Source: Utricularia gibba (taxonomy: Eukaryota; Streptophyta; Magnoliopsida; Lamiales; Lentibulariaceae). From it: DNA of 34,481 bases. Where the stretch lies: contig NEEC01000090.1 in the NCBI GenBank assembly GCA_002189035.1, positions 1-34,481 on the forward strand, written 5' to 3'. This document shows positions 4,860 through 28,681 of the stretch, in pieces. The stretch's first letter is position 1; every line of letters begins with the position of its first letter. The notes beneath the pieces were generated by a model, which was not told the origin of the DNA, made no database searches, and was given only the letters and a program-made list of their open reading frames with translations. Made by a program: the position numbers and the translations under genes.

Positions 4860-5600
4860 ATTCTATAAATCAGTTAGCAAACACGAAACACCTATGTTGA
4901 ATATAAATCTAATTCAAGTTAGATCAACTCGGCCCACTTTAAGGCCCACTGTGCCAAACGAAAATCGAAATGCAAAGGCCCAACTCACACTACGTCTTAA
5001 CAAATGGGCCACATCAGGTGAGAGCCCATATTTCAACGCCAGGCGGCAGCCCATGCGCAACTTGGTCGTGAGGAATTATGTAAGAATTAAGACGAAATAT
5101 TATTTTAACAATTATATTTGCGTTTGACTCTTGTACATATAAAATATTATAAGTGTTTTTCATATATTAATTATTACATGTATAATTTATGAAGTATATT
5201 TAAAAATGAAAACAAAGCGAAGTAAAAATTCAAACGGGTATTTATGAGTATATGCTATTTTTCGATGATTTAGAAAATCTGATTATTTGTATTTTCGCTC
5301 TCACACATTAATACAAAAAAATTGTACTAAAATCATCATTTTCTCACATATATTTAACAGATGGTCAGATTTATAAATTACTCATTCTTTTATTATTATA
5401 TTCTTTCTCATATATTATATCAATAATTATTATTTTTGTCTTTTGCTTTTAGTATTTATATTTAGCAATCTTGTATTCTCTCAATTATTTGTCATTAATT
5501 AAAATTAAAAGAAAATCAATTTACCAAATTCTGATAATAATATTATCGAAAGCAACATTCATCCACTTATTTAAGCGACTTGACTCAAAGAATGATTAAA
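4860..5600 (+). repeat. array module A, copy 1 (promoter-like block)
   Basis: This is the first of several direct copies of an AT-rich module. It begins with a stretch containing several GGCCCA/TGGGCC motifs (site-II-like, common in plant promoters). It continues through a landmark near 5160 (ATTAATTATTACATGTATAA) and ends with a conserved tract leading into TTATTTAAG at 5567-5575. The copy at 8396-9150 aligns over its whole length at an offset of about 3.55 kb. Shorter or more diverged copies lie at 7150-7660, 10315-10800, 17880-18190, 20100-20350 and 24925-25380. Confidence 0.7.
5567..5575 (+). promoter_or_regulatory. conserved TTATTTAAG box, copy 1
   Basis: It sits in the shared context ATTCATCC-n-CTTATTTAAG and looks like a TATA box facing right. 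About 300 bp downstream begins the inverted RING copy (5900-6076), and then a sense copy (6866-7149). A transcript from here would therefore be antisense to the first and sense to the second. Promoter activity is inferred from conservation and position only. Confidence 0.45.
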
Positions 5601-5899
5601 ATTACCAATGCTCCAAAGCATATTGGAACTAATCGAATTACTCTGTTCCTCTTGTAGTAGCAATACAAGTGTAGATTATTCTCAAGTCCTTTGGACTCGG
5701 ATGGAAGCATCAAAAAGGCATCATCATCCTCTTCTTAGGATGGATGATGGTCGACCTTCACATCATCTACAATTAGTTTATCAAATTCGATATTATTATG
5801 ACGAAATAATTTCAATTATCTCAATTTTTTTCAGGTATCCAGGAAACATTATTTGAGAATTGTTGTATATATTGTGCTTGTTGGGCTCTTGTTGGTCTT

Positions 5900-6076
5900 T
5901 ATGAGGTGCTTGGTGGTAGCTGTTTCAACATAATATTTTGTCTGAGCAATCCTCACAAATATTTTCAAAAAAGAATTTTCTTAAATGCAAAACAAAACAA
6001 AATTATAGTACCGAAATTATTGGAGCCCTATGGGGCAATTGAACACCTCCATATTCACCCATTTGTATTCAGTCAT
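5900..6076 (-). pseudogene. SINA-like RING fragment R1 (broken)
   Basis: The start codon is at 6076. The first 15 or so residues (MTEYKWVNMEVFNCPI) match the copy at 6866 almost exactly. About 16 bp that would hold the second Cys pair residue and the following loop are then missing, and the frame stops at about 6017. After a donor-like GTACTA and AT-rich intron sequence, exon 2 starts at 5957 with Cys-rich codons (C-E-D-C-S-D-K-I-L-C) and stops at once. It has the family's exon-intron layout but cannot make a RING. Its CTATATAAG promoter lies at 6114-6122. Confidence 0.7.
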
Positions 6077-6113
6077 TTTTATGATGTAAGTTTTTTATTT
6101 CATCATCCATCTT

Positions 6114-6240
6114 CTTATATAGCGTTGGAGGAGCAGAATCTATGTGTTTTTAATGTTATGGATAAATATTATATTTTAGATTTATATTTTATGATAATAT
6201 TTGTGTAGAATTTTGGTATTCTAAAAAAAATCATTAAAGT
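6114..6240 (-). promoter_or_regulatory. RING-family promoter, copy P1
   Basis: On the - strand CTATATAAG (6122-6114) is preceded by GCTCCTCCAACG and ATAGATTCTGCTCC-like sequence, 38 bp upstream of the R1 start codon. The same arrangement is found at 6700-6833, 12560-12700, 17390-17560, 21545-21700 and 26420-26545, which shows it is the inherited promoter of the RING gene family. Confidence 0.6.
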
Positions 6241-6289
6241 TCATGGTCCAAGTCCCAAAATGAGTGAAACCCATTTTCCAAATATAGAT

Positions 6290-6560
6290 CTTACGTAATT
6301 TGTATCTCTTTTGTGTGTGTGTGTTTTTTTTTTTTGTTAAATTCCCTTCTTTGGGGTGAGGAAGATTAAAATTCAAATATGGGATATCTAGGGATGAAAA
6401 CTAAGCCCAAGTTCATGGGCCGGTCCGAGCCGGTTCTAGGAAGTATTGGGCTTAGACCTGATCCAAATTTCATTGGGCTTTTGGCCGAGACCGGCCCAAA
6501 TTCCATCCATAGTGATATCATTCCGTACCCATCCCTTCACTGCCTTCCTTGCCCTTGAAT
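6290..6560. other. GT/T-rich tract and low-complexity GGGCC-rich stretch
   Basis: A (GT)n/T(n) tract at about 6313-6340 is followed by sequence repeating GGGCCGG, GAGCCGG and CGGCCCAAA. This is a pattern often seen in plant non-autonomous elements and degenerate satellites. No gene or TIRs were found. Confidence 0.35.
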
Positions 6561-6599
6561 ATTCAAAATTGATATTGCAATATTTTTCTAAATTTTTGT

Positions 6600-6833
6600 G
6601 CTATGTGGCAGTAAATTTTGTAATGTACACAATATTGATATTCATTTTTCAAAAATTGTTAGCACATCATAGTGAATTTTGTAATATGCCTGTTTAAAGT
6701 GTAATTACATGAATTTTTATAGAATTATTATCATATGACGGTGCATTTTGTATGTGCTGGAATTAAAGTGTAGCGTTGTTTGCAAATCACACCTTTTGGT
6801 AGTATAGATTTTGCTCCTCCACCACTATATAAG
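6600..6833 (+). promoter_or_regulatory. RING-family promoter, copy P2, with internal direct repeats
   Basis: CTATATAAG lies at 6825-6833, 33 bp before the R2 start codon, behind TATAGATTTTGCTCCTCCA. Upstream, a module of about 60 bp containing TGAATTTTGTAAT and TTAAAGTGTAA appears two to three times in tandem (about 6608, 6669 and 6738). Other family promoters have it once. Confidence 0.6.
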
Positions 6834-6865
6834 TTGGTGATGAAATCAAAACTTACATATTAAAA

Positions 6866-7149
6866 ATGCCCGAATACAAGTGGGTGAATATGGATGTCTT
6901 CAGCTGCCCTATCTGCTGAACGGCCCAATGAGGGCTCCTATCTTTACGGTAGTATTCTTTTTTTTTTTTTTTTTTGAAAAATTCTTATTAAAAAACATGG
7001 ATACTCATGCCCAGTGCAGCGAAGGCCACGTCGTCTGCAACGTGTGCGCATCAAAACTACATCGAAGACCACATCAAATCCAATTTCGGGTCAGGCTGGC
7101 CCATGCCACCTCCCGGATGCCACGTCAGATGAAACGAATGTTCAGTTAA
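6866..7149 (+). pseudogene. SINA-like RING fragment R2 (broken)
   Basis: Exon 1 is 6866-6948 and codes for MPEYKWVNMDVFSCPIC. It is then thrown out of frame by a 1-nt loss inside the next codons, where the family has the motif C-x-G-P-M/I-R. The donor is GTAGTA at 6949, the intron carries the family's poly-T tract, and the acceptor is CCCAG at 7010-7014. Exon 2 (7015-7149) codes for CSEGHVVCNVCASKL, the third to sixth zinc ligands of a SIAH-type RING. It then diverges into unrelated sequence before the last C-x2-C and ends at a stop. It is head-to-head with R1 at 790 bp between start codons, so R1 and R2 form a loose inverted pair. Confidence 0.75.
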
Positions 7150-8395: not shown

Positions 8396-9150
8396 CCATC
8401 CTTTAAATCAGTTAATAAACACGGAACACCTTAGTCGAATACAAATCCAATTCAAGTTTGATCAACCCAGCCCAATTTAAACTCTATAACACGTTGCCCC
8501 TGCTTTGTATCAAATGAGACCCAAATACAATGGCCCAACTCACACTATACATCTTAAAAATGGGCTAACTCAGTTGCGAGCCCATATTTCAACGCAAGAT
8601 CCAGTTCCAACTCGGCCCAGCTCATGCCCAACTCAGTCGTGAGGAATTACATAAGACCAAATATTATTTTAACGATTTTATTTTCGTTTGACTGCTTTAC
8701 ATATAAAATATTATAAGTATTTCTCATATGTTAATTATTACATGTATAATTTATGAAATATATTTAAAAATTTAAAACAAAGCAGAGTAAAAATTCCAAC
8801 GAGTATTTTATGATTACACATTATTTTTTCGGTGTTTTAGAAATATGATTATTTGGATTTTATTTCTCACACATGAATAAAAAAAAATTACATTAAATGT
8901 CCAATTTTCGCACACATATTATAGTTGGTCAGATTTATAAACATCTCATTCTTTTAATATTATATTTTTAATTCTTTTTTTTTTTTGTACTTTTGCTTCT
9001 GGTAGTTATATTTCGCAATCATATATTCTCTCAATTATATTTCATTAATTAAAATTAAAAAAAAATCAATTTACAAACTTCTAATAATAATATTATCGAA
9101 AGAAACATTCATCCGCTTATTTAAGGGACTTGAGTGATAGGATGATTAAA
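8396..9150 (+). repeat. array module A, copy 2
   Basis: This is a full-length direct copy of 4860-5600, diverged by scattered substitutions and small indels, with its TTATTTAAG box at 9117-9125. The leader that follows (9150-9300) also matches 5590-5830, including CCAAAGCA-ATTGGAACTAAT and CTCTTGTAGTAGCAAT. The repeat unit therefore includes promoter, leader and foldback. Confidence 0.7.
9117..9125 (+). promoter_or_regulatory. conserved TTATTTAAG box, copy 2
   Basis: The context is the same as copy 1 (GAAAGAAACATTCATCC, then CTTATTTAAG). It lies about 330 bp before the outer end of the tight foldback at 9453-9833. The spacing fits a Pol II TATA box whose transcript contains the whole hairpin, but no expression evidence is available here. 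Confidence 0.45.
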
Positions 9151-9379
9151 ATCACTCATGTTCCAAAGCACATTGGAACTAATTGAATTACTTTGTTACT
9201 CTTGTAGTAGCAATGCAACGTCCTTTGGACCCAGAGGGAAGCAGAAAAATGCATCATCTATAATCAATTTATATTGATATTATTATGATGAATTAATTTC
9301 AATTATCTCAATTTATGTGAGAAATGAATTTTCAGGTATATTATTATTATGCAATCCTGGAACAATCAATGTTATGGAT

Positions 9380-9637
9380 AAATATTCATAGTTTACGGTT
9401 TCAGTCACATGCTCCAGGTTCCAGGTCGCACCAGAGTCGTGTCGACAAAGTGGGCACCTCAGAAATTTGTGTGAGCATACAACGTGTCCTTCGTACACTG
9501 GGCACGAGTATCCATATTTTTAAATAAGAATTGGTGTTTAATACAAAACAAAACAAAAATATAGTAGCGAAATTAATTCTTGTACTTCTTGTGAGGCCCT
9601 GGCAGCAGCAAAGGGGACAGTTGAATACCTTTGTATC
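9380..9637 (-). pseudogene. SINA-like RING fragment R3 (left arm of F2)
   Basis: This is a - strand copy without a start codon. Exon 1 begins inside K-V-F-N-C-P-L-C at about 9630. The intron runs from about 9570 to 9512, and exon 2 (about 9512-9380) codes for C-P-V-Y-EGHVVCSHKFLRCPLCRHDSG, then a family-type tail W-N-L-E-H-V-T-E. The last C-x2-C is preserved here although it is lost from the sister arm. Confidence 0.65.
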
Positions 9638-9833
9638 GCAACAGAGATTGATGAATACAGAGGTGTTCAACTGCCCTATTTGCTGCTGCCAGGGCCTTAC
9701 AAGAAGTACAAGAATTGATTTCGCAACTGTATAGTTTATTTTGGGTTTAACAAAATTCTTATTTAAAAATACGGATACTTGTGTCCACTGTACGGAGGAT
9801 CATGTTGTCTGTACACAAAAATTATTGAGATGC
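9453..9833. repeat. RING-derived foldback F2 (arms 9453-9637 / 9653-9833, loop about 15 nt)
   Basis: The left arm read on the - strand and the right arm read on the + strand align along their full lengths of about 180 bp, with scattered mismatches (by eye about 80-85% identity). Both carry the family exon 1 (V-F-N-C-P-L/I-C), the intron with its TATTTAAAAATA-GGATACT end, and exon 2. On the - strand exon 2 reads CPVYEGHVVCSHKFLRCPLC; on the + strand it reads CVHCTEDHVVCTQKLLRC. The two arms together are two halves of an inverted duplication whose intervening DNA has shrunk to a few bases. Neither arm codes for a complete RING. Confidence 0.85.
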
Positions 9834-9850
9834 CAACACAAATTAAATTA
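9653..9850 (+). pseudogene. SINA-like RING fragment R4 (right arm of F2)
   Basis: This is a + strand copy: E-V-F-N-C-P-I-C from 9661, an intron without a clean donor, and exon 2 from about 9781 coding for C-V-H-C-T-E-D-HVVCTQKLLRC, then a stop at about 9850. It is the reverse-complement partner of R3. Confidence 0.65.
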
Positions 9851-9867
9851 GATTAATATCTGTTGTT

Positions 9868-10300
9868 TATTCAAAAAAATGAATGCTACATATTATATAT
9901 ATCTTTATCACCTCCCCCACTCTCTCTCTTACTTTTATCAAATATTGATAAAAATCTATTAATTAAATAATATGTAAAAAAGTAATACCTTCATATCAAG
10001 TTCAAATAAATTAAATTTATTTTATCATAATCTCATTAGCTAAAAACTCTTGGAACTTAAATATGTATTGTAAGTGTGGGATTGGCCAGGCCAGCCTGAC
10101 CTGAAATTGGATTTGAATCCAAGAGTTTTTAGTTAATGACATTGAACTTAAATAAAATTAATGTGAAGGTATTAATTGTTTACGTATTCTTTAATTAATA
10201 GAATTTTTATCAATATTTGATGAAGTAAGAGAGAGAGATAGAGAGAGTAGGGGAGATGATAAAAATATATATAATATTTAGTATTCAATTTTGTAATAAA
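9868..10300. mobile_element. foldback / MITE-like element (arms about 9868-10050 and 10118-10300)
   Basis: An imperfect inverted repeat with arms of about 170-180 bp contains CTAAAAACTCTTGG / CCAAGAGTTTTTAG at the inner end, AAGGTATTA / TAATACCTT in the middle, and a CCCCCACTCTCTCTC / GAGAGAGTAGGGGAG tract near the outer end. The loop of about 70 bp holds CCTGACCTGAAATTGGATTT, which is the reverse complement of sequence at about 7068-7100 in fragment R2. No transposase is present. This IR does not carry RING sequence in its arms, so I treat it as a MITE or foldback element rather than a family foldback. Confidence 0.55.
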
Positions 10301-10314: not shown

Positions 10315-10800
10315 TTAAACTCTACAACGCCATCCCCCTGGACTGTGCCCAATGAAAATAATCCCCCGTTATATATGAAGGCCGGACTCAACACATAAGC
10401 ATCTTGACAAACGGGGCGGGTCAGTGCAAACCCAAATTGCAGCGCCAGATCCAGTTAACTCGGCCCAGCCCATGCCCGAGTTCGACTGTTGCACAAATAA
10501 AATACCTTTAGAATTTATGCAAAATAATTACATCCATAATGCTGATATATTATAAATATTTTTCATATATTAATTAATTATGAAATATATTTACGGATTT
10601 ATAAAAAATAAAAATAAAAAGTCAACTGGATATTTACGATTAGCTATGCTTTTGCATTTAGTGATTACAATTCGTAACTCTATATTCTTTCTATTACATA
10701 TGTTTTTTTCATTAATTAAAATTAAAAGAAAATCAATTACCAAATTTGATAATAATATTATTGAAAGAGATATTCATCCATTTATTTAAACGAATTTGTT
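10315..10800 (+). repeat. array module A, copy 3 (shortened)
   Basis: It repeats the GGCCCA-rich start (near 10380-10480), the TTAATTAATTATGAAATATATTTA landmark with internal deletions, and the conserved tract leading to TTATTTAAA at 10782-10790, where the last base of the box is changed. Confidence 0.6.
10782..10790 (+). promoter_or_regulatory. conserved TTATTTAA(A) box, copy 3
   Basis: It is preceded by ATTGAAAGAGATATTCATCC as in the other copies and lies about 220 bp before foldback F3. The terminal G seen in five other copies is A here. Confidence 0.4.
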
Positions 10801-11007: not shown

Positions 11008-11257
11008 TACTTTTTGTGAGCACTGCATACAGACTACCCGTCCTTCGATACACGTCCACGAGTATAGATATTTCTCAATGAGAATCTTAATTAATACGAA
11101 ACAAAATAAATGATACTTTTTACGGAAATGATGGTGGCCAACCATTTGTGTAATATATTTTTGTTTTGTATATAATAAATTCTCATATAAAAATATCAAT
11201 ACTTGTTGGGGTGTATCGTGGGACGCGTAGTATGTATGCAATGCTTGCTCACAAAAG
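11008..11257. repeat. RING-derived foldback F3 (arms 11008-11116 / 11150-11257, loop about 33 nt)
   Basis: The left arm on the - strand ends in exon 2 codons C-I-E-G-R-VVCMQCSQK. The right arm on the + strand ends in the matching TATGTATGCAATGCTTGCTC-ACAAAAG. The arms pair over about 108 bp. The loop holds a remnant of exon 1 (GGCCACCATCATTTCC then GTAAAA, seen on the - strand). No arm is coding. Confidence 0.8.
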
Positions 11258-11405
11258 GTAATATATTTTTGTTTTGTATATAATAAATTCTCATATAAAA
11301 ATATCAATACTTTTGGGTGTATACGCGTAGTATGTATGCAATGCTTGCTCACAAAAGGTAATATATTTTTTTTGTATATAATAAATTCTCATATAAAAAT
11401 ATCAT
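11150..11405 (+). repeat. tandem repeat of the F3 right arm (about 2.5 units of 100-108 bp)
   Basis: Unit 1 is 11150-11257 (108 bp), unit 2 is 11258-11357 (100 bp) and a partial unit 3 is 11358-11405. Each begins GTAATATATTTTT and, when complete, ends in GCTTGCTCACAAAAG. Unit 2 has small deletions. The 3' arm of the hairpin has therefore been amplified while the 5' arm stayed single. Confidence 0.9.
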
Positions 11406-12540
11406 TACACACTATTTTTTATTTAATACACACAAAAATTAAAATATTTAGAGTTATAAATGACCAAATGACGATGTAGTATTTGGGGTGTGAAAAATTG
11501 ATTTAATGTGCAAGATCGAAAAATACGATTATCTGATATGTAAATGATTTGATTTATCTTAATTTTAATTTTTTCATTTAAATAAATTGAATAGATTCTT
11601 TACATCAAACTAACTTGTTAATATTTATATATATTATCTGAAAACTATTTTCATTAATTAATAAAATTTAGAATATGATATTTGATTTTAATTAAATCTT
11701 TATCCTATCTACATATATATTATTTAGACTATCATATCTAAAATATGCCCCCAATATGGTTTTAGTTCAATAAATGTGATATATATTACTTATTCTAGAG
11801 TTTGTATTATCACAAAGAAAGTCCACTCTTGGCCTCCTGAATAACAATTCAATTCTATCCGATAACATTGAAAGAGATGAAGCCATGTTTATATATGGGG
11901 TACAAAAAGGGGGTCATGGTCTGTGAGATCTGTTCGCTCAAATTATCAAGATCCCCAACCTAATTGTCTATCATTATTGATACTAAGATCGGACGTGTAT
12001 TGCCCATTATACCCTTTATTGCATCAAAACCCTAAGGCAATTTTATTTATTTAATCGAAGTAGAAGGATTTTTTTGTCTTATTATTATAAACAGAGATTA
12101 ATGTTACATTATCTTAGTGGGGTTCTTCTTCCAGTGTAGATTGAGGGCATAGTGGGCATCTTCTGTGTAAATTAATATCTTTATTCTAAATATATAAGTT
12201 TAGATAATTATTTTACTTTTTATAAATAGGTTCAACCCAAAACAAAATTGAATCAAACAACCAACTGAGCCGGTTTTAAAGACACCGCCGTAGGTCTACT
12301 TTAAAATTGCATAGAGTCGTTCCCCATAGCACACGCAAAGCCCACATTAATACCCATCTTAAAATTCAAATGCAGAATGGTATCTCCTAATATGTTAGAT
12401 TTTTATAATCAACGAACAACTCTTTTTATTTACTGTCATAAAGTTGCACATATAAAATAAAGTATAAATTACATCAATAATGTATATATATTATCATTGT
12501 TTGTAATGCATAATAATTATTATGCTGAATTAAAGTAAAA
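11406..12540. other. AT-rich spacer
   Basis: There is no coding frame or RNA gene. A segment at about 11990-12080 (CCCATTATACCCTTTATTGC, AAAACCCTAAGGCAA, AGGATTTTTTTGTC) recurs in related form at about 20050-20130, 20990-21040 and 27140-27190, which marks another family-associated flank. Confidence 0.4.
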
Positions 12541-12559
12541 TTACAAAGTACGTATTACA

Positions 12560-12700
12560 ATTTTTTCTAGAATTATTAGCACAACATTATGAGTTCTGTA
12601 ATATGAATGATTAAATTGTAATGTTGTTCAAAAAGCATTAACTTTTCATAATATAGATTTTGCAACTCCAACACTATATAAGAAGCTAGGGTGATGCGAA
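12560..12700 (+). promoter_or_regulatory. RING-family promoter, copy P3
   Basis: TCTAGAATTATTAGCAC, GTAATGTTGTT, TATAGATTTTGCAACTCCA and CTATATAAG (about 12675) appear in the family order, about 40 bp before the start codon at 12725. Confidence 0.65.
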
Positions 12701-12724
12701 TTGCAATTAAACCTTGTATCATAA

Positions 12725-12930
12725 ATGGCGGAAAATGAAAGCTATATCATGACGGGAGAATTATTCAACTGCCCGATTTGATGCGAGGGCCCCATGAGGG
12801 AGGCCATCTTCTCGTTAAGAGATTTATATTTTTTATTTAGCACAATTATGAACTAATAATTTTTATTTTGAAAGTGTGGCGAGAGCTACATACTATGTGA
12901 TGCCTCCTCACTCTCGCAGTTAGACCTCAA
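12725..12930 (+). pseudogene. SINA-like RING fragment R5 (nonsense mutation in the RING)
   Basis: Exon 1 (12725 to about 12815) reads MAENESYIMTGELFNCPI, then TGA where the family has the second zinc-binding Cys, then CEGPMREAIFS. The donor has become GTTAAG and is doubtful. Exon 2 (from 12875, acceptor GAAAG) reads CGESYILCDASSLSQLDL. The His ligand and the last Cys residues are lost. This copy keeps the best promoter and start context of the broken ones. Confidence 0.7.
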
Positions 12931-12970
12931 AGTAATAATGTATGGATATTATTGAAATCTTAGAGAACAA

Positions 12971-13309
12971 AATCACGGAATTCAAGACAACGGCAGTGAT
13001 GAGGTGGCCCTAGGACAACAACATGGTACAATGGAAACCTATTTTAAAGTGATGCAGGGTAGAACTAACTTAGGTGGAGAGTATTCTGTAGGCTACGGTA
13101 CACAACCACTTGGAAGGTCCAAGCATCCGAATCAATACCAGGTAAGGCGGCGTTTTGAGGACCTTCCAGGTGCTCGTATTCCGTACCCTACAGAATACTC
13201 TCCAGCTCAGTTTGTTCGACCTCACATAACTTCAAAATAGGTTTCCATTGTACTAGGTTGTTGTTGCTATGGCCACCTCACCAGTGCCGTCGTCTTGAAT
13301 TCCATGATT
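12971..13309. repeat. non-RING foldback F4 (arms 12971-13120 / 13159-13309, loop about 38 nt)
   Basis: The arms of 150 bp pair along their full length, from GGAATTCAAGAC at the left edge to TGGAAGGTCC at the inner edge. About four in five positions match, with long identical runs such as TACAATGGAAACCTATTTT and GGAGAGTATTCTGTAGG. I see no RING codons in it. Its right arm runs directly into the LTR of the gypsy element, so it may derive from retroelement sequence. The + strand frame 13004-13240 crosses both arms and is not credible as a gene. Confidence 0.85.
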
Positions 13310-13882
13310 CTTGATGAGATCATGGATGCTACTGATTATTCCAATGAAGACAAAGGACACAAGATCAATAATTTTCCATTGATTTCAGTAGGGCCAATCA
13401 CTAGATCAAGAGCAAGAATGAATCAAGAATTGCTTAAGACCTTATGGGCCAATCACCCAAGCTATGAGATGTTTGGGATGGAATTCAACATTATCAAAGT
13501 GGATCAACTTGATTAGAGAAGGCCTATTACGACCAAATACATTATTATGACTACTTTGCCTCCAATAAGGCCCAATCCTTCAACTATATAAGAAGGGCCT
13601 TACTCTTGTTTTGGACAACTTTAATTGTAATCACTTTTGAGAGCAAATTCTCCTTCCTTGAGTTCTTGTACAACTTAGACTTATCAAGCTTTGCTTGTGG
13701 TGTCTAGTGTGTGGTTTATCACTCCCAATTTCTTCATTAATTCTGTGAGTGTGGTACCATTTCATAGTTTGGGTTGCAAGGATCTTTCAATCCTTGAGGG
13801 CCAACTTCTTTTTCTTGACGGATTGTTTCTTTTCAACCAAGATCTGGTTTGCCAATCATTTGTTGATTGGAGGGTCGTATCA
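13310..13882 (+). mobile_element. LTR (or truncated LTR) of a Ty3/gypsy element
   Basis: The stretch ends in GTATCA, two bases before a perfect PBS. It contains a TATA box (CTATATAAG, 13584-13592) and T-rich sequence as expected for an LTR. Its first part is open (13295-13516, +) and codes for G-P-I-T-R-S-R-A-R, a motif found at the C-terminal tail of many plant gypsy polyproteins; in some elements the pol frame runs into the LTR. The left boundary is not clear: it abuts foldback F4 and I find no TG start with a matching second LTR downstream. Confidence 0.65.
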
Positions 13883-13884
13883 GG

Positions 13885-13897
13885 TGGTATCAGAGCC
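13885..13897 (+). other. retroelement primer-binding site (initiator Met tRNA type)
   Basis: TGGTATCAGAGCC is the standard plant LTR-element PBS complementary to the 3' end of initiator methionine tRNA. It sits two bases inside the LTR end at 13882. Confidence 0.9.
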
Positions 13898-14594
13898 AAT
13901 CTTTCTCTTCTTCATCTCTTATTTATCTTGTTTTTGTTTCGTTCTTAGAAAGAAAAAAAAAAACCAGAAACTAGTCCAGATCTATATTGATTTGGTTATC
14001 TTGTCTTTTGCTCATCTCTTCTTCTGAAAAGAAGAACCAAGGGGGGTTTCTTATCTTTGTTTCTTCCATCCTTTTCTTCTGGATTGCTGCAAAAAAAAAA
14101 AAAAAACGTGTTGAAGGGAGAAAGAAAGTTAGTAGCTGAATTTTCAACTTTTCACACATAAGAAAAGTCAAAAAAAGAAGTTAGTCATTTGAATCCATTG
14201 AATCTTCTCTTTACCAAAAAAAAGAAAAGTCAATATTGTACAACTTTGTCTATTGTCCTACTTCTATTTCATTTTAACTCTTTTCAATTGTCTACCTACC
14301 TCTTTTGGTGTTAATCACAAAAAGTTACACTCTATCTTTCCATTCCTACTCTTACTTAACCATTATTACTATTACCATCACCAAGTCTTATATTGTTCGC
14401 TTTCTTTATCCCACTCATTACTCTAGCCACCCTTATCTCTTTAAACCACACTTAGATGGATTTTTTAAGGTTTATTGAGTCTTAAAGTTAAAGAGGACTT
14501 GAGGTTTGGAAATTCTTTCTTTCTTCATTTACTTCTATCTTTCTGTCGTTGTACTCTTTCCTTCTTTTTGTCTACACTTTTCTCTTGTAGTAGG

Positions 14595-16244: not shown

Positions 16245-16387
16245 TCCATGATGGCTATACTAACAAGTATTCCTTTTCTATGAAAAGAAAACAAAATCAC
16301 ATTGGTGCCTTTATCTCCAAAATCACATTGATCCATGATGGCTATACTAACAAGTATTTGATTATATGTCCATGCACATTTATGTAA
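16216..16387 (+). pseudogene. gypsy pol remnant after the frame break
   Basis: In the shifted frame the conserved G-R-P-W-Q-Y-D-R motif that follows gypsy protease is readable. The peptide I-H-D-G-Y-T-N-K-Y then occurs twice, because a stretch of about 30 bp (ATCCATGATGGCTATACTAA onward) is repeated at about 16245 and 16330. The frame ends at 16387 and the element stops there, as if cut by an internal deletion. Confidence 0.65.
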
Positions 16388-17560: not shown

Positions 17561-17879
17561 AGTTGTAATCTGTGTTTTGCAATTATAATTTAATTCAACG
17601 TATCACACAATTTCCATGATTGTTTAAAAATTACTATTTAATTCGTTTTACATGAGGAATTGTTCATGGTAAAAGTTATATTAAATTTTATTACTACACA
17701 ACATAAAATCATTAGATACAATTTATTTGTTCTTCATTTTCTCATACAGTAAGTACTACATAATATGGTTGGTTAACGTAAAATGAACCAAAATCATCTG
17801 AAACATAGCTAGCATTGAGATGTAAATATAAAGTATTAACTATAATTTATAATAATATACAGCATACATTATGTCTGAA

Positions 17880-18801: not shown

Positions 18802-18956
18802 TCTTGTATGATTACTATATGTATTTTATCTGACCGCGTAAGTTAAACACAATAATTTTCAATTTCTTTTTCTTTCATCAATTAGTATTATAAAATTATA
18901 ATAATTTCCATGTAATATTTATTAATCTTGTTTTTGTTTATTAGGACGGCCCCGAG

Positions 18957-19142
18957 GCGCCTTTGTCTGTCCTCTATGATGTGCTCCATGTCACGGCACC
19001 TACAAGACAGTGGCCCACAACATTGTGGGCATCTTTCAAGTTTGTGGCCTTCCGCACACTTCCACAAACATACATATTCTTTCTGGAAGTGTCCGGAAGC
19101 CCACATTGTGTGTGACGCCACAAACTGGAAAGATACCCACAC
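18957..19142 (-). pseudogene. SINA-like RING fragment R7 (left arm of F6)
   Basis: This - strand frame covers exon 2 only: C-A-E-G-H, a deletion of about six residues that removes two zinc-binding Cys, then K-L-E-R-C-P-Q-C and the SINA-like post-RING motif C-R-C-R-D-M-E-H-I-I-E. The frame is open but starts in the opposite arm, so it is not a gene. The inverted partner on the + strand (19084-19203) keeps HIVCDA and lost other Cys. Confidence 0.65.
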
Positions 19143-19206
19143 TGTTGTGGGCTACTGTACTGCACGTGCCGCCACGTAGAGCACCTCATACAGGACAGGC
19201 AGACGG

Positions 19207-19530
19207 GTCATTTAGAAAAATGGACATCTTTCCCACCTATATTATAACATTTTTGAAATCTATTTTTATTTTTCAAAATTACTTTTAAAAAGTAGAAATA
19301 AAAAGTAAAATTAACTAACTCCTTACTTTTCCAAAAATAATTTTTGTAGTTATAATTTTAAAAGTGTTTTTGATAAAATTACTTTTCGAATTAAAAGTAT
19401 TCTAGAACAAAAATATTTTTATTTTTGAAAAATATAAATAAATTTTAAAAATTTTACAGAACACTGTTTAATTCAAAATTTTTACACATAAGTTTACCAC
19501 TTTTCTACAGTGACTACTTTTCTAAATCAC
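19207..19530. mobile_element. small TIR element (MITE-like) inside F6
   Basis: About 324 bp, AT-rich and non-coding, bounded by GTCATTTAGAAAAATG on the left and its near inverse CTACTTTTCTAAATCAC on the right. It interrupts the right arm of F6. No clean target-site duplication is visible, so the superfamily is open. Confidence 0.5.
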
Positions 19531-19602
19531 TCCACGACAGACACGCTGCGGCAAAATGCGCCTCGCGACCCTCCTAATAAACAAAAACAAGACTGATAGT
19601 TT

Positions 19603-20160: not shown

Positions 20161-20560
20161 TAATGTTTATGATTATTTATATACTACCTTTTCTGATATT
20201 GTTCCTTTTGTATTATAAAAATATTTTTTTGATATTTTTACAGTCAAATATTCTCTGGATTTTCAATTGAATGCAAAAGATGATTCATTTACCTAACTTT
20301 GAGAATAGTATTTTAGAAAGAAGAATTCATCTACTTATTTAAGATATTCGTTTCATAATATAATGCATGTCAATCTATCAAATGTCCTTGCGGATCATCC
20401 TCTTTCAAGGGTTGGCATCATCTTCTTTCAATTAGCTGAATTTCTGGTGGAGATTAACGGTTATTATGCAAGAATGTGCCATTATTGTGCATTTTATTAT
20501 GATAATTTCTTGATTCAACTAAATGACTCTAATAACATGATAAAATGCAAACAGTAATTA
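20160..20560 (+). repeat. array module B copy 2
   Basis: This is a direct copy of 17990-18350. Shared landmarks are CAGTCAAATATTCTC, TTGAGAATA-TATTTTAGAAAG, TTATTTAAG (20335-20343) and, further right, TTATTATGATAA-TTCTTGATT and TAATTAATCTAAT. Confidence 0.6.
20335..20343 (+). promoter_or_regulatory. conserved TTATTTAAG box, copy 5
   Basis: It sits in GAATTCATCTACTTATTTAAG-like context, about 235 bp before the degenerate foldback F7. Confidence 0.4.
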
Positions 20561-20830
20561 ATCTAATAAATAGGTTATTCAAATCGGGCGGGCCCGGGAG
20601 AAGGGGCATGGAGCGGGGTTTTTTTTAAAAAAAATATCCACTATGTTTTGATTATATTAGAAATTTAACTATTCTACGTGTATTTTTTTGTGCTTAATGT
20701 ATGAAAGAAATGAACAGTGAGTATTTTTTAAAAACACCCATGGAGCGGGTCATCCCAGTCAACCCCTTCCCAGGAAGACTTTTCTCATATTCCTCCTCCT
20801 CCATCAGATTAATTTTTGCATAATTAATTA
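20556..20830. repeat. degenerate RING-derived inverted pair F7
   Basis: The left remnant on the - strand reads TGCCCCTTCTCCCGGGCCCG, matching C-P-F of exon 2. The right remnant (20736-20815) matches the right arm of F5 (GGAGCGGGTCATCC, GTCAACC, CCTCCTCC). Large deletions leave only about 30 bp able to pair. It is the decayed sister of F5, 2.16 kb away. Confidence 0.55.
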
Positions 20831-21150
20831 CTCAATTAGTATAAAAAATGATCACACAAATATTAACCTTACCGCCTAAGTTAAAACATAATTTTCAATT
20901 TCTTTTTCTTTCTTCAATTAGTATTTTAAAATTATAAGAATTTCCATAATCCCTCACACAATCCAATCAAAAATGATACTTTATACCATCCTATTTGTTG
21001 CCCATTCTACCCTCCATGAAAACCCTATTGCATCATATCTGAATGGGTATCATTCTCATCCGGTTTATACGGATTTATGTTATGATAATTAACTAATTTT
21101 ATTTACCACTGAAAATTAAATTCTCAGGTATATTATTTTACAAATACGAC

Positions 21151-21533
21151 TTAATCATTCTTTTGTTTGTCGGTGTCGGGGACTGGGGGAGGAGCCGGAT
21201 CTCCATCTCCATCTCCCTCGAGAATAGACCGAAATATCTTTTCCAGGTCTGAACACCTGCAACAGATTGGTCCCTTACAGATTGGGCATTTTACAATTTG
21301 TGGAAGCATGGCTCACACACAATAATCTCTCCTTCTCCGCACTGCATTCAATTTATTTTTTTTCTTAAAAATAAATATTGGTAATTAAAACAACAAATAA
21401 AATAAAACCAAAAAAAGGTTACCGAGAAGATGGGCCCTCTGATGGGGCCGACACCGCACGCCGAGCAATTAAAGAGGTGGGCAGGGACATAACATAGCTT
21501 CTTTTTCTCCATCTTGTTCATACGAGTTTTCAT
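21151..21533 (-). pseudogene. SINA-like RING fragment R8 (one frameshift, otherwise complete)
   Basis: Exon 1 is 21533-21423 (37 residues, with C-S-A-C then GVGPIRGPIFS). The intron is 21422-21342 (GTAACC...GCAG) and exon 2 is 21341-21151. Exon 2 gives C-G-E-G-E-I-I-V-C-E-P-C-F-H-K-L, then a 1-nt loss (near 21293) puts a stop in frame. In the next frame the family sequence continues as K-C-P-I-C-K-G-P-I-C-C-R-C-S-D-L-E-K-I-F-R and a D/P-rich tail ending K-Q-K-N-D. The zinc-binding His of the usual C-x2-G-H is Glu. If read through it would be about 100 residues, RING only, with no SINA/TRAF-like domain. The promoter is P5. Confidence 0.75.
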
Positions 21534-21544
21534 TTCACCAACAA

Positions 21545-21700
21545 CTTATTATATATCGATGGAGGACCAAAATCTATGTTACGAAAATATGTGATTTACG
21601 GACAGGATTACGCTTTAATTAAGAACGCGCTATCATATTATAATAATTCTCGAAAATGACATTGCGATATTAACGGTGCGTATTGTAAAGTCAGGGGTCT
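21545..21700 (-). promoter_or_regulatory. RING-family promoter, copy P5
   Basis: The - strand order is GAGAATTATTATAATATGA, TTAATTAAAGCGTAAT, CATAGATTTTGGTCCTCCAT, and a TATA region CGATATATAATAAG (21558-21545) close to the R8 start. It is diverged from the CTATATAAG copies but collinear. Confidence 0.55.
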
Positions 21701-22959: not shown

Positions 22960-23633
22960 ATGCCGTCTTCTCTGCAGATTCAGAGGATTAGCTCCAGGAG
23001 CCCTCGCTTCACGGACCGCCTGGATCTCATGTGGGTTTCTCCGATTTCCCCTGAAATTCCCCTGCCGGATGATGTTCGCCGCCGTCACACTCACCTGGTA
23101 CTGTCTGATTTCGTTTTGATTGATTTCCGCCTCATACGGGTAACCCTTTCTTAATCATGTGCCGTTTCTAGGTAATGGAAAACCAGTGCTGCTCCGCGGT
23201 GGTGCAGGCGATCGATGCCCCTATCGAGATCGTGTGGTCCTTGGTGCGACGATTCGACAACCCACAAGCGTACAAGCATTTTCTCAAAAGTTGCCGAGTG
23301 GTTCACGGCGGCGGGGAGGTGGGTACTGTAAGGGAGGTGACGGTCGTCTCCGGGTTGCCGGCGGGGAGGAGCACGGAGAAGCTGGAGATTCTGGATGATG
23401 AGAAGCATGTGATGAGTTTCAGAGTCGTCGGCGGCGATCACCGTCTCCGGAACTACCGGTCCATCACGACACTCCATGCGGCGGGAGCGGCCGCGACGGT
23501 GGTGGTGGAGTCGTATGAGGTGGATGTGCCGGAAGGGAATACGGTAGAGGAGACTCGTGCCTTTGCGGATACGATCGTGAGATGCAATTTGCAGTCGCTT
23601 GCTCAGATCTCTAGAAGTTTGCTCACAAATTGA
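22960..23633 (+). CDS. PYR/PYL/RCAR abscisic acid receptor, PYL4/5/6-like
   Basis: Exon 1 is 22960-23097 (46 residues) and exon 2 is 23172-23633, giving about 199 residues, the usual size. START/Bet v 1-like fold landmarks are all present: NQCCSAVVQ after the N-terminal extension, [16 protein letters not shown] with the ABA-contacting Lys (K85, equivalent to PYR1 K59), the gate loop SGLPA (106-110), the latch HRL (136-138) within [11 protein letters not shown], and D-V-P-E-G-N-T before the C-terminal helix. Receptors of this type bind ABA in the cytosol and nucleus and then inhibit clade A PP2C phosphatases. Sequence points to the PYL4-6 group. An intron is required because reading on from exon 1 meets a stop. 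The gene sits alone between members of the RING array and is intact. Confidence 0.9.
23098..23171 (+). other. PYL intron (74 bp)
   Basis: The donor GTACTG is non-ideal at positions 4 and 6; the acceptor is TTTCTAG. It splits the gene in phase 0 between T-H-L and V-M-E-N-Q-C-C. Arabidopsis PYL4, PYL5 and PYL6 lack introns, so this one deserves a check. Confidence 0.75.
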
Positions 23634-24537
23634 ATTTTCAATATATATATATTTTTTTGCCAGGCTGTTTAATCCTCATTATCGCATTAAATAGCCGCTT
23701 AATACTTCAAAAACAAAAAAAACTAAAAGCATTTTCCTTTCTAATTAAAGGCATTATGTTAATAAAAAAAATTTTATTATCTAAATTCTTTCTTCAAAAT
23801 GAGAAGTATTTTTGTTGAGGAGGCAAATGCCCAACAGTCATCATAAAGCCTTCCATCAAAATGGACCAGGTCGCAAATTAGGGTAAAGCCCAGTTCGAAC
23901 AAGTACGAATATTTATACGTTTTTTATATTATATATAAAATAACCATTATCAGATCAAAATGGGCTGGGCCACCGATGAAAAAGAGTGATCAGCGTGGCC
24001 CAATACGCAAATTTTCAATTTCTGTTTTTTCGGTAAATTATTATTATAATTTGATATCAATTTGGATCGATTCCGGCAACAATACAATGAAAAAAGCATT
24101 AGTGCAACTTGTTTTAGTATGATTTTCTTGGTTAAATTCATGAATTTTTTTATAATGAATTAAAAAAATATAAATCTTATATTTAATTAATTTTTTTATA
24201 ATGAAATACAATTTGCTTCTCAACAATAAAAATGAAATAATGTTTGAGAAGAAACTTGTAGTAATGAGTTTCTGGTTTTCTTTAAAAAAAAAACTAAAAT
24301 ATTAATTATAATAATTCAAAAATAAAGAATAAATTGTGGTTTTTATTTATTTTGTAGGCAACCCTTGTGCTGGGCACAGAAAACACAACCTACCATCAAT
24401 GTTTTTTAAAGCAACTATGTAAATGGGGCCGTGAGAATCAAAAAATGCACCAAGTATTAACTATTGCCAATACCTAGCTGCCACTAACACGTACGTACGG
24501 GTAAAACACAGGTTCGGGTCGGGTCGGCCGACATCTC
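23634..24537. other. PYL 3' flank and AT-rich spacer
   Basis: At 23990-24130 it carries a copy of the flank found after other family copies (CAAATTTTCAATTTCTGTTT, TTGATATCAATT, AGTGCAACTT). That flank recurs at 27020-27200, downstream of the intact RING gene, which suggests a deleted RING copy once stood near here. Confidence 0.4.
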
Positions 24538-24920
24538 AGGTTCCGCCGCCGTGCGTTCTCGCAGGAGTGAGCAACCAGTCATGAGAATAAGCTCTAGAAC
24601 AAGGCGTCACCTTAAAAAAAAACATCGCTACCATAAATCTCATCAGGCAAAGATATATCAGGAGGATATTCTTTCTTCTTGCGTATTGCCATCTCTTTTC
24701 CTAGTTCCTCCTCCAATTCGAAATCTCCGGCGACCCCGTTCAACAGCATCTCCAACTTTCTCCTGCTCAACGATTGAGAAGACCAAGGAGCCATCAAATC
24801 TCCAGCTCTTTTCCCCTTCGAATACAAAACATCATCATTACCGACGATGACCATGAACCGCCGCCGTCGACGCAGTGAAGGGGGGTGGCGCCGCCGGAGC
24901 CGGAAGCTCTGTTGACATCA
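24538..24920 (-). pseudogene. truncated copy of the CCCH zinc-finger gene
   Basis: On the - strand this stretch matches about 29630-30093 of the RR-TZF gene. It codes for [13 protein letters not shown]-(R/K)[12 protein letters not shown] and KKKEYP-DISLPD-IYG, but with internal deletions, a frame break and loss of both ends. Ankyrin and zinc-finger regions are absent or cut. The left edge falls inside the parent's PGENARRR region and the right edge just after GTTGACATCAA, where array sequence starts abruptly. Orientation is the same as the parent gene 5 kb away. No poly-A tail or TIR explains the move. Confidence 0.85.
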
Positions 24921-24924
24921 ATAA

Positions 24925-25400
24925 TATATATTAATTATTATTTATTTGTCATGTGTGGTTACAAATTCTGACTCAAAGTAGGTTGAAAATTCAAATGTGT
25001 ATTCATGACTACATATTATTATTATTTTTTACTTGTAGTCTATGAATTTGGAGACAGCAAAGTGGAAGCGATGTAACGTTCATTATAATTGATTCGATAT
25101 TCGAAAACGTAAAAAAAAATTAATATAATGATATGTATATTATTAGAATTAAATAAAAAAATTCATATTAGATTCAGGAAAAGAAATATATTATTTAATA
25201 GATAATATCACGCTTAGAAGCATTTTAAAGGAGACCAAAAGTGGAGACCATTATGGATTAAGAAGATTTGTAACATCATAATTATTTATTGCATGTATTT
25301 TCCATGCAAAAGAATCGATTTTATTGAAATTTGGATAATAATATTGTGGTGAGAAGGATTCATCCCCTTATTTAAGTGACTTAGCGCAAGGCATTATGGG
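24925..25400 (+). repeat. array module A-like block before the palindrome
   Basis: It shares TATTAATTATT, GGTTGAAAATTCAAATGTGT and TGACTACATATTA with modules A and B, and ends in GATAATAATATTG-GAGAAGGATTCATCC and TTATTTAAG at 25368-25376. Confidence 0.6.
25368..25376 (+). promoter_or_regulatory. conserved TTATTTAAG box, copy 6
   Basis: It lies about 345 bp upstream of the left arm of the 2 x 382 bp palindrome and points into it. A transcript from here would run antisense through the left RING gene, then the spacer, then sense through the right one, giving a very long perfect hairpin. Confidence 0.45.
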
Positions 25401-25718
25401 AATTAAGAATGCACTAGAATACCATCCAGTTTGTGTCTTCTTGGGATTATTCTCAATTCTTCTTAACACCATCCTCCTTCCAAAGGCAGGCAAGTAGATG
25501 GAGGTTCATGACGGATGATCAATTTTCTAAATGACGCTATATCATTCTCACTCAATTTTACAAAGTAGTACTATTCATTCATTCATTTTTTCTTTATTGA
25601 TAAAAATATTAATTTTTTGTTGGTTTGGTGTTATTTGAAAAGCATAGGTTGGGTGTAGAAGCAATATTTGGTTCTTGTATATATTATCAAGTACACACAA
25701 ATATTTGTACAATTTTTA

Positions 25719-26070
25719 CTAATCTTGCTTCTCTTTGTGGGCAGCTGGAGGACGAGACCGCGACGTCGCCTTGGGTTCGAAGCGCGTCGTTTGGAAAAGC
25801 GCTTCGAAATGCCTGCATCTACAGCAGACGTCCTCTCCGCAGAAGGGGCATCTCCCTAACTTCTGCGAACACGGCCCACACAGAATGTGGCCGTTCATGC
25901 ACTGCCAAAAAAAAAAAAAAATTAAGAACACATACACTTGATTTAATAGAAACACAGCAAAACAAACCCAAAAAACTTACGGAAAAGATGGCCCCTCTGA
26001 TGGGGCCGTCACAGCAGATCGGGCAGTTGTACATCTTCATGTCAGCCTCGATTAATTTGTATTCAGCCAT
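25719..26070 (-). CDS. SINA-like RING-only microprotein, left copy (intact frame)
   Basis: Exon 1 is 26070-25981, the intron is 25980-25902 and exon 2 is 25901-25719; 90 residues. The protein sequence is identical to the right copy at 26588-26939, where the domain description is given. The stop codon is TAG instead of TAA because the repeat ends one base earlier. This arm ends 31 bp upstream of the start codon and so lacks the family's CTATATAAG promoter. Only a weak AT-rich stretch lies upstream, so it may be silent as a protein gene while still able to supply antisense sequence. Confidence 0.6.
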
Positions 26071-26187
26071 TTACTCTCTGGTACAGTGTTAAATTTCATC
26101 AATTACTTCATTTAATATTATTATACTTTAAATTGTTTCAAGTATGAAGAATTAGGCTACATGAAAATTAACGTGATTTGGAGGGAA

Positions 26188-26203
26188 TATGTATGTATGT
26201 ATG

Positions 26204-26239
<36 letters not shown>

Positions 26240-26274
26240 TGTATGTATGTATGTATGTATGTATGTATGTATGT
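26188..26274 (+). repeat. (GTAT)n microsatellite in the palindrome spacer
   Basis: About 20 tandem GTAT units, interrupted once by TATATAT near 26205. It lies in the non-duplicated spacer. The open frame across it is an artefact of the repeat. Confidence 0.95.
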
Positions 26275-26419
26275 ACATGCACTTCTACACCCATCACATC
26301 ACCTCATTCATGATCCTCGAATAATCAAATCGCAAATTGCATGTTACATATTTTTCTTGAATTATTATCAGAATTTTGAAATTTCCAGAAAATTGATTTT
26401 GCAAATATTTCTAAGTCAT

Positions 26420-26545
26420 TATCAATTTTTTCTAGAATTATTATAATCTCAGGTGAATTTTGTAATATGTGTAATTAAAGTGCAATGTTGTTAAAAAGCA
26501 CGACTTTTTCATACTATAGATCTTACTTCTACAACTCTATATAAT
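26420..26545 (+). promoter_or_regulatory. RING-family promoter, copy P6
   Basis: TTCTAGAATTATTATAATCT, GAATTTTGTAATATG, TAATTAAAGTGCAATGTTGT, TATAGATCTTACTTCTACAA and CTATATAAT (26537-26545) lie 43 bp before the start codon at 26588. This is the best-supported promoter of the family because it serves an intact frame. Confidence 0.65.
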
Positions 26546-26587
26546 AAACAAGCTGGTGATGAAATTTAACACTGTACCAGAGAGTAA

Positions 26588-26939
26588 ATGGCTGAATACA
26601 AATTAATCGAGGCTGACATGAAGATGTACAACTGCCCGATCTGCTGTGACGGCCCCATCAGAGGGGCCATCTTTTCCGTAAGTTTTTTGGGTTTGTTTTG
26701 CTGTGTTTCTATTAAATCAAGTGTATGTGTTCTTAATTTTTTTTTTTTTTTGGCAGTGCATGAACGGCCACATTCTGTGTGGGCCGTGTTCGCAGAAGTT
26801 AGGGAGATGCCCCTTCTGCGGAGAGGACGTCTGCTGTAGATGCAGGCATTTCGAAGCGCTTTTCCAAACGACGCGCTTCGAACCCAAGGCGACGTCGCGG
26901 TCTCGTCCTCCAGCTGCCCACAAAGAGAAGCAAGATTAA
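26588..26939 (+). CDS. SINA-like RING-only microprotein, right copy (intact frame)
   Basis: Exon 1 is 26588-26677 and exon 2 is 26757-26939 (donor GTAAGT, T(15)GGCAG acceptor); 90 residues. The C3HC4 RING is complete: C16-P-I-C19, 11 residues, C31-M-N-G-H35-I-L-C38-G-P-C41, six residues, C48-P-F-C51. The post-RING motif C-C-R-C-R-H-F-E-A-L-F-Q resembles the R-C-R-A-M-E-K-V-I-E of plant SINA-like proteins. The protein then ends in a basic, Pro-rich tail, with no SIAF/TRAF-like substrate-binding domain (full-length SINA-like proteins are roughly 250-350 residues). Family knowledge suggests E2 binding. Lacking a substrate domain, it could act as a dominant-negative partner, which is an inference. 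The first zinc gap is 11 residues, one more than usual. It has its own family promoter, P6. Confidence 0.75.
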
Positions 26940-28681
26940 ATATTGTATAATTATACAAAATAATTTATTATACTTTATTGTAAAGAAGGTGAATTAGCGA
27001 TGGTGTTAAGAATTAAGGAGCCCCAGCCCATCACAATTTTCAATTTCTGTTTTATCGGGAAATTAATATTATAAATTGATATCAATTAAATCAATCCAAC
27101 GAAAACCAGAAAGATGAATAACACAATCCACTCAATCCTGGCCCTCCATTACCGCGAGATGTTTCCCTCAATGAAAATCCTAGTGCAACTATACCTACTT
27201 CATGTGAGTCCAAGGCCTCGACGAGTGTTTTAAAATAATGGGTTTTTTTTTATGAATTCAATTTAACAATTTTTATATAAATCGAAAAATTATTTAAAAA
27301 AATTAAAAATATTACATTTAATTAATCTTATAATTTGCTTCACCACAATTATTTCGTCTTGTTATGAAAATATGAAATATGAATAAAAGGAAATAGTTGG
27401 CGAAAAGAAAATTGTTCTAATCAGATTCTGTGAGCAATATTTTAAAAACGTGTTCAATTCATGATTTGAATTAGTGATCCCTACGGTTAAATTGGATTCC
27501 TTAATTTTTTATTATATACAATAAAAATAATTGTTTAGACAAACCGTTATTTTAAAATATGGACGGCTGTAGTCGTTAACTTTCTAGTCATAGAATGGTA
27601 GTGGATCATTGATACGAACCCAATTTCACGTTCGGCCCGATCCACCTAAAGAAGGCCCACCGTAAAATCCATAGAGCCGTTGGATGACGTAATTATGGGA
27701 TGAGCCCTTCCTTTGCATAAACCCCGTCTGCCACTTGAATACGGATTGATGTACGTGCATAGTCGATACTTGTGATTAGAACACGCAAAAACAAATTCAA
27801 AAATTTTGGTGAACTGAAAATCCCAAGGAAAATTGAGAATACTCAGATATGCCAAATAAATTGATCTAATTAAAAATGAATGAACAAATGTAACAAACAT
27901 CAATATAACAATATTATTCATTTTAGATATTTAATTTTCATTGTTTTATATTTGGTATTTTCAATTTTCATCCTCAAATTACTCTAGATTAAATATATTT
28001 AATTTTGAAATTCCTATCAATAACTTTTCACCATACTCAGAAAATAGATCTCTGCATAGTCATTTTATTCAATTTTATCATTTCTCATACATGAATTCAC
28101 TTAGACCATCCTTTCTCGTGCAGGGCATCGGATTCGAAGCATGAATGATTGAGGCCTAGTTCGATATTTCTATAAATAAGTTTAAACAATGTAGAACCAA
28201 AATTAGTTTTTTTATTAAATAATAAATCTCACATTCTAATAAATCATGGAGAGGAGGAAGCTTCCAACTGCCAATTCATGGGATAACCCTAATAATGTAC
28301 ACGTGTTTAGTATTAGGATGGCAGGCTGGACCCCACCTAAGTAAACATGTCGACACATTAGATGACATTAAAATCTAATTAAAAAGTGAGAATTAATTAG
28401 TATTTAAGTGTAATTATTATAGATGAGAAGATAATAGTGAGAAAATAAGGAATATGAATAAATGGAATAATTTTTTAAAAGAAGATTTTAGTAATCGAAT
28501 TTATATCGTGGCTGCTTTCTAAAACAATAATTCAATGAGAAAAAATAAATCAGCTTGGAGGTGGCGCGGCCGGTTAGTTCCCGGGATGACGGCGGAGGCC
28601 ATGATGATCTGCTTACGCGGCTGCTTCCGCCGCTCTATTTACATTTCTCGACGTGCCACCATGTTATCAAGGGGGTCTCCT
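26940..28681. other. AT-rich spacer, 3' flank of the RING gene and of the CCCH gene
   Basis: 27000-27200 is the conserved downstream flank of the array (TTTTCAATTTCTGTTTTATC, AATTGATATCAATT, AATCCTAGTGCAACTAT) and marks its right limit. From 27.2 to 28.5 kb the sequence is ordinary AT-rich DNA without genes. The last 150 bp probably hold the 3' UTR of the - strand CCCH gene. Confidence 0.45.

Follow-up and report, generated by a model that had tools for sequence, protein, structure and literature searches.

Contig NEEC01000090.1 of Utricularia gibba (C87; termed here the window, at its full length of 34.5 kb, in an assembly of 100.09 Mb and 516 contigs) carries an array of inverted gene-fragment pairs, most of them derived from a small RING gene and several standing behind a shared promoter-like module, that may, judging from its DNA sequence, be a site at which silencing-RNA genes newly arise. 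The hairpin-forming pairs occupy a stretch of 22 kb. The gene content of the window is that of a flowering plant, with a CCCH/ankyrin protein, a kinase, a Ty3-type gag frame and a PYL-like frame. From position 3582 onward, where the comparison starts, C87 matches a region of another contig (C412:760.6-795.2 kb) at 98.7-99.7%, and it thus represents either another haplotype or a duplication of recent date. Both copies contain the long palindrome described below (C412:785944-787930) and the remaining foldbacks, which makes an isolated assembly error improbable.

The donor gene has two exons and about 90 codons and encodes a RING-only protein: the palindrome gene scores 31.5 bits against PF21362 (Sina_RING, cut-off 29.3), which makes its RING Sina-type, and the TRAF-like SINA domain (PF03145) was not found in the window's RING gene, a genome search for it matching six other loci only. 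The original prediction of a SINA-like donor therefore stands for the type of RING but not for the rest of the protein: the gene has a Sina_RING-type RING in common with SINA/SIAH E3 ligases and, unlike them, consists of some 90 residues without the TRAF-like domain. Arm alignments and tblastn recover 14 RING fragments in the window, or 15 with a tandem copy, and 12 of the 14 form six inverted pairs (Table 1), which bears out the fragments and pairs foreseen, if not quite the number (at least 15, nearly all paired); tblastn matches 12 of the 14, two of them weakly (E 0.22 and 0.063), and for the arms at 11153 and 18586 the RING assignment comes solely from pairing with their partners. Among the copies read, only the two in the palindrome are intact; the others contain stops or degenerate RING residues, and the single copy (in its C412 version) reaches 14.5 bits against Sina_RING, under the cut-off.

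In all six window pairs, and in a further pair on contig C317, the two arms are each other's best match among 16 sequences compared, and arms of the five older pairs are 80-84% identical (gaps excluded). For units 1 and 2, identity between arms of one unit (76% and 78%) exceeds that between units (64-71%), indicating that units were re-duplicated separately or that arms were homogenised within palindromes.

Six sites with at most three mismatches to the core ATTCATCYNCTTATTTAAG (five perfect, one with two mismatches) occur in the window, all on the + strand, where 0.23 would be expected in shuffled sequence. Allowing one mismatch, the whole genome holds 11 sites, of which C87 and C412 have the same five each and C1 a single mismatched one, and a reversed-pattern control gives one site on each strand; perfect copies are confined, in this 100-Mb genome, to the cluster and its near-identical C412 copy. 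Five cores precede clear inverted pairs, at 392, 333, 226, 149 and 333 bp from the 5' arm, and the sixth precedes the unit-5 remnant, so that a putative promoter with a conserved TATA-like core stands 149-392 bp before five clear pairs. Around the TATA-like box, 40 bases are on average 80% identical over 15 unit pairs (computed without gaps), whereas the flanks, with gaps allowed, are 69% (200 bases upstream) and 65% (140 downstream) identical. Such a shared module, with TTATTTAAG ahead of the foldbacks, had been predicted, and the six cores confirm it; its supposed length of 0.5 kb was incorrect, as modules measure about 0.9 kb (units 1 and 2) or 0.4 kb (units 4 and 5), with only some 70-120 bp common to all six. 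Modules 1 and 2 are 77% alike across 905 alignment columns, and a search with module 1 outside the cluster returned short pieces only (at most 87 bp, 55-63 bits; C328, C2 and C213), not the core. Reading on from the TTATTTAAG core, one enters the antisense arm and not the start of a RING gene. Separately, 58 bases of the module 1 leader (5674-5731) are 83% identical, in sense orientation, to the 3' end of a neighbouring gene (811-868; WEMBL-like, under the family cut-off), a trace that is weaker in modules 2, 5 and 6 and not seen in modules 3 and 4.

Self-BLAST of the 34.5 kb finds eight distinct inverted pairs (nine rows) whose arms are 60 nt or longer, six derived from RING and one from a phytocystatin gene, as opposed to one in 52.3 kb from nine other loci of the genome, three of which were picked for matching foldbacks and include the locus of that single pair. 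Five RING pairs and one remnant lie directly behind a core. Compared with dinucleotide shuffles (10 or 30 a unit), the minimum-energy folds of eight of the nine window units are far more stable on either strand (z -8.3 to -74.5; for unit 2, -248.8 kcal/mol and z -20.6 over 9400-9850), the ninth (20570-20810) being the exception, whereas for 28 control segments taken from eight loci the mean z is -0.18 and the lowest -2.4; foldbacks elsewhere reach -17.4 (C317) and -11.0 and -9.6 (two units on C316). What the modelled folds show is a capacity to form hairpins, not their production.

The stages that had been proposed do lie side by side: unit 1 is a pair with its arms spaced apart, unit 2 a tight hairpin, unit 6 a palindrome of 98.5% identity and unit 5 a remnant whose centre is deleted. 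The 660-nt spacer of unit 1 contains promoter sequence of its + RING copy, and unit 6, which had been called perfect, has a 455-nt spacer and arms falling short of full identity, with both copies reading as the same intact RING. Unit 5 resembles 18003-18366 and 18709-18911 and looks like a copy of unit 4 minus the hairpin centre. In the second foldback behind module 4, outer arms (18920-18964 and 19554-19598) are now parted by a high-copy dispersed repeat of about 230 bp inserted in the 3' arm (19237-19484), which has relatives at 84-89% in 38 other places, among 40 of 305 candidates scored. Across the window, older stems are 80-84% alike in the RING pairs and 85-87% in the other two foldbacks.

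Table 1. Array features in positional order; strands of individual RING copies in brackets.
Feature	Position	Strand	RING copies	Details
Promoter-leader module 1	4860-5725	+		GGCCCA-rich upstream part, TATA-like core 5557-5575, leader
Unit 1, spaced head-to-head RING pair	5959-6998	.	6143-5959(-)/6804-6998(+)
Promoter-leader module 2	8398-9258	+		core 9107-9125; similarity to module 1, core motif
Unit 2, tight RING foldback	9450-9837	+	9637-9436(-)/9655-9850(+)	arms 83.5% alike, loop 18 nt
AT-rich foldback, origin uncertain	9866-10300	+		downstream of unit 2; z -21.6
Promoter module 3	10649-10800	+		core 10772-10790 (2 mismatches); 79% with module 1
Unit 3, decayed RING foldback	11008-11408	+	11111-11008(-)/11153-11260(+)	3' arm tandemly repeated (tandem copy to 11408); self-comparison, fold
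RING-gene promoter, exon 1 (with stop), intron, exon 2 start	12526-12940	+	12725-12940(+)	82% with C317:614112-614414
Phytocystatin-derived foldback	12944-13313	+		5' arm antisense, 3' arm sense; z -23.4
Ty3-type LTR retrotransposon remnant	13312-16322			immediately past cystatin foldback
Solo RING-gene promoter	17357-17597	-		inverted partner of 12526-12721, 86-87% over two pieces
Promoter-leader module 4	18003-18324	+		core 18166-18184; self-comparison, core motif
Unit 4, RING foldback	18325-18820	+	18563-18325(-)/18586-18820(+)	arms 81.5% alike; fold, arm alignment
Second RING foldback behind module 4	18920-19598	+	19058-18920(-)/19107-19201(+)	arms 18964-19058 / 19107-19201
Module 5 and centre-deleted remnant of unit-4-type foldback	20189-20947	+		core 20325-20343
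Single RING gene copy and its promoter	21163-21656	-	21512-21163(-)	self-comparison, tblastn
Promoter module 6	25327-25412	+		core 25358-25376; self-comparison, core motif
Unit 6, palindrome of head-to-head twin mini-RING genes	25701-26954	.	26101-25701(-)/26557-26954(+)	arms 98.5% alike, 455-nt spacer

Two foldbacks do not bear out their earlier assignment to RING. The one at 9866-10300 is AT-rich and not recognisably RING, with 74-82% identity to short stretches on C375 and C414; a gene origin was considered and rejected, since these relatives are AT-rich and have no open frame of at least 60 codons over the match. Arms that resemble a gene, both of them and beyond 21 nt, were found in the RING and cystatin units and not in this one. 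The other (12944-13313) comes from the 3' end of a phytocystatin gene, copied in inverted form: it matches, at 78-81%, two tandem genes about 627 kb away on C412 (1396.9 kb and 1400.5 kb), the product of the first having Pfam SQAPI and Cystatin domains. The arms cover the end of the coding region and the sequence that follows it, and directly ahead of the unit lie a RING promoter and a RING exon 1 that is broken. At 140 comparable sites, the arms have 12 derived changes in common, 8 and 11 private ones and 2 where both differ, so that either the gene piece was captured before its inverted duplication or the arms were homogenised. Relative to the state common to both genes, changes unique to the foldback comprise 23 from C/G to T/A, 4 in reverse and 15 transversions (the counts for a gene fragment outside any foldback being 9 and 16 in reverse, with less certain polarity), an excess that fits a methylated inverted repeat. 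Between the tandem cystatin genes themselves lies another inverted repeat (L020:5442-6419 on C412; arms of about 355 bp, 86.6%, spacer 267 nt).

Outside the window, a genome search places the RING gene at C412:840-844 kb, on C316 (a second copy of the same region) and at C317:614 kb, as one single copy plus inverted pairs. These pairs are tail to tail on C316, at C412:844 kb and on C317, whereas those in the window are head to head, and in the tail-to-tail arrangement transcription from the RING promoter itself would pass through sense arm, loop and antisense arm in turn. C316 has two such foldbacks versus one at C412:844 kb. A 27-nt exact match between 7075-7101 and C316 was tried as a conserved small-RNA site and dropped as a target site, because alignment puts it at the start of a GGCCCA-rich stretch downstream of both RING copies that resembles the upstream part of the modules.

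On balance, the array is probably a local family of hairpin-RNA-type loci that arose by repeated inverted duplication of gene segments. Birth by inverted duplication is strengthened by two findings beyond the original prediction, namely the cystatin foldback within the array and the sister RING pairs on C316, at C412:844 kb and on C317; what stands of that prediction, a nursery of hairpin loci, is that pieces of genes were duplicated in inverted form downstream of a promoter-like module common to several units, and what lacks support is the targeting of SINA genes in trans. Transcription of the + strand would start at the module, or at the RING promoter in the cystatin and tail-to-tail units, giving a fold-back transcript that, for the RING and cystatin units of the window, leads with its antisense arm. 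From the near-perfect palindrome, DICER-LIKE enzymes would release mixed short interfering RNAs (siRNAs), and from the mismatched older stems fewer products more like microRNAs (miRNAs); a search of the genome for Dicer_dimer gave three matches, one with internal stops. A more specific scheme, in which a cassette with its private promoter repeatedly takes up inverted pieces of a fast-evolving RING-only gene, its own hairpins restrain that gene as in conflicts between hairpins and drivers, and a RING promoter gained a cystatin-silencing hairpin, is doubtful; if true, the path from twin genes through palindrome to miRNA-like stem would be visible in one place.

As for targets, the palindrome would silence its own twin RING genes in cis, which is its likeliest effect, and cystatin mRNA is the best candidate for an effect in trans: 21-mer pairs within two mismatches number 25 and 26 for the two arms against the first cystatin gene and 17 and 23 against the second, with one mismatch at best. 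The predicted silencing of full-length SINA-like mRNAs is not supported, because arm matches are no better than those of shuffled sequence. With low-complexity 21-mers removed and every second position scanned, the best 21-mer of each of 13 arm or gene sequences has 3-5 mismatches to the six loci with a TRAF domain (dinucleotide shuffles 1-6); an earlier unfiltered run of 11 sequences gave 2-5 versus 3-5 for one simple shuffle each, six of the 11 falling under their shuffle. Arm 1R, at two mismatches in that run, has a filtered best of three (four shuffles 4, 4, 4 and 4). The C317 arms, promoter included, have 42 and 24 21-mer pairs at 1-2 mismatches from a degenerate RING copy at C316:14.6 kb, the best of which fall in promoter sequence.

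Several observations weigh against hairpin loci as the explanation. If RNA from the + strand is selected for pairing, the mispairs that drift produces should be of the G-U and not the A-C kind; the GU:AC counts, in window order, are 5:5, 13:4, 6:5, 5:2, 4:8 (cystatin), 7:11, 5:5, 3:1 (remnant) and 5:2 (palindrome), a near-even 53:43 over the nine units, with only unit 2 leaning towards G-U (p 0.049, uncorrected). The C317 pair stands at 18:10, and on the + strand of C316 the counts are 6:9, 5:6 and, for a third, spaced pair, 8:11; at C316 we infer that the - strand is transcribed. The hairpin RNAs are themselves predicted from DNA. Unit 5 (20570-20810) retains no hairpin (z -0.2 and -0.4) and yields no self-BLAST pair, and the cystatin unit stands behind a RING promoter rather than the shared module. 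Conservation of the core can reflect no more than recent duplication of units. The C-to-T excess of the cystatin foldback, in which CpG-specific decay was looked for and CpG and non-CpG sites behave alike, may come from GC-rich coding sequence drifting towards an AT-rich background. Older RING hairpins of the window have drifted away from the palindrome gene, none of the other window RING arms having a 21-mer within two mismatches of it (one T run excepted). Of 11 Rfam matches (E up to 1), not one attains its gathering score, and the best, mir-297, is an ATGT repeat in the palindrome spacer; a match to a known miRNA family is not required of young MIRNA loci.

In the main rival explanation, the locus is prone to repair or replication errors that form palindromes and keep copying gene pieces in inverted form; the copies play no part as RNA and then decay. 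Near-even mispairs, a unit with its centre deleted, damaged RING residues and stops in the other copies read, the unequal number of foldbacks in the two versions of the sister region and the capture of an unrelated cystatin piece all agree with such mutational debris, and gene conversion inside palindromes could by itself make arms mutual best matches. Aimless decay does not predict that six cores, all on one strand, are kept better than their flanks, though recent unit duplication could partly explain this, and we regard debris as a real but lesser possibility. That the protein is what selection maintains, the divergent twins being functional members of a small RING family and the hairpins by-products, accords with the two intact palindrome copies, whose protein is above the Sina_RING cut-off, and with promoters 71-87% alike across copies; it is nonetheless unlikely, as other copies read as degenerate or with stops, several tight foldbacks have no gene start and the TTATTTAAG core leads into an antisense arm.

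A foldback-type or gene-capturing DNA transposon (a miniature inverted-repeat element, MITE, or one like Pack-MULE), with the arms as terminal inverted repeats, is already disfavoured for the RING units and highly improbable overall. It could account for the short relatives of the 9866-10300 foldback on two other contigs, and a true high-copy repeat does sit inside the 18920-19598 unit, but the RING units occur at few loci rather than as many dispersed copies, their arm ends vary between units, they are made of gene exons, introns and promoters, and self-comparison found no terminal repeat of at least 60 nt common to all units.

Endogenous inverted-repeat siRNA loci, such as those of chalcone synthase and similar inverted repeats, exist in plants, and unit 6, a long and nearly perfect palindrome whose two arms come from the same gene, resembles them. 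Only unit 6 fits that description, most other units being short-loop stems of 80-87% identity. In hairpin transgenes, according to one study, perfect hairpins methylate and silence themselves and changes to about 25% of the sense sequence prevent this (PMC9263138), a state that the older stems here, at 80-87%, approach. The birth of plant MIRNA genes by inverted duplication is described as a known process in two reports (PMC1790633, PMC3237417), and several states behind a shared module are what the model expects (PMC1790633). MIR163 and 16 gene-similar young Arabidopsis loci are presented as such genes (Fahlgren 2007, PMC1790633); as here, arms resemble protein-coding genes well past the length of one small RNA and some no longer match the parent family. 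For MIR163, the parental promoter is reported to have been duplicated as well. The Arabidopsis loci differ in that the array has many units in one place, known at the level of DNA, with six units bearing a locus-private promoter-like core and arms from two unrelated gene families. A possible parallel is offered by Drosophila hairpin-RNA loci reported to silence Dox-family drivers (PMC10292708, PMC10317233), the likeness being a fast-turning gene family that itself supplies the hairpins able to silence it, although that pathway is an animal one and the present locus is a matter of genomic sequence.

The locus is unusual in the number of units in one place, their shared private promoter-like core, two opposite topologies within a single gene family and a second donor gene; among the literature matches listed for plant hairpins, young MIRNA genes and Utricularia (titles and abstract openings), none reported it. 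The transition from gene to silencing-RNA gene has usually been inferred from single isolated loci. Because several stages and two donor genes occur with the same core in two assembled copies, the succession of events, from inverted copy through loop shortening and drift to loss, and the role of promoter capture are directly testable here. If the cystatin hairpin is active, a protease inhibitor would have acquired a new regulator.

Some smaller features lie among the units. In C412, the Ty3-type element includes a 3' part that is absent from C87, and a second LTR copy is followed by a further inverted RING promoter, neither of which C87 has. Inside the single RING copy, three neighbouring bases (21291-21293) differ between C87 and C412. 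The PYL-like frame between RING units (23175-23633) is a Polyketide_cyc2 open frame to which we gave that name as our own label. Beside the palindrome unit, a short direct repeat matches at 92% (24010-24062 and 27035-27087), and a direct-orientation fragment of the CCCH/ankyrin gene region at 24535-24921 is 73.6% identical to 29624-30089.

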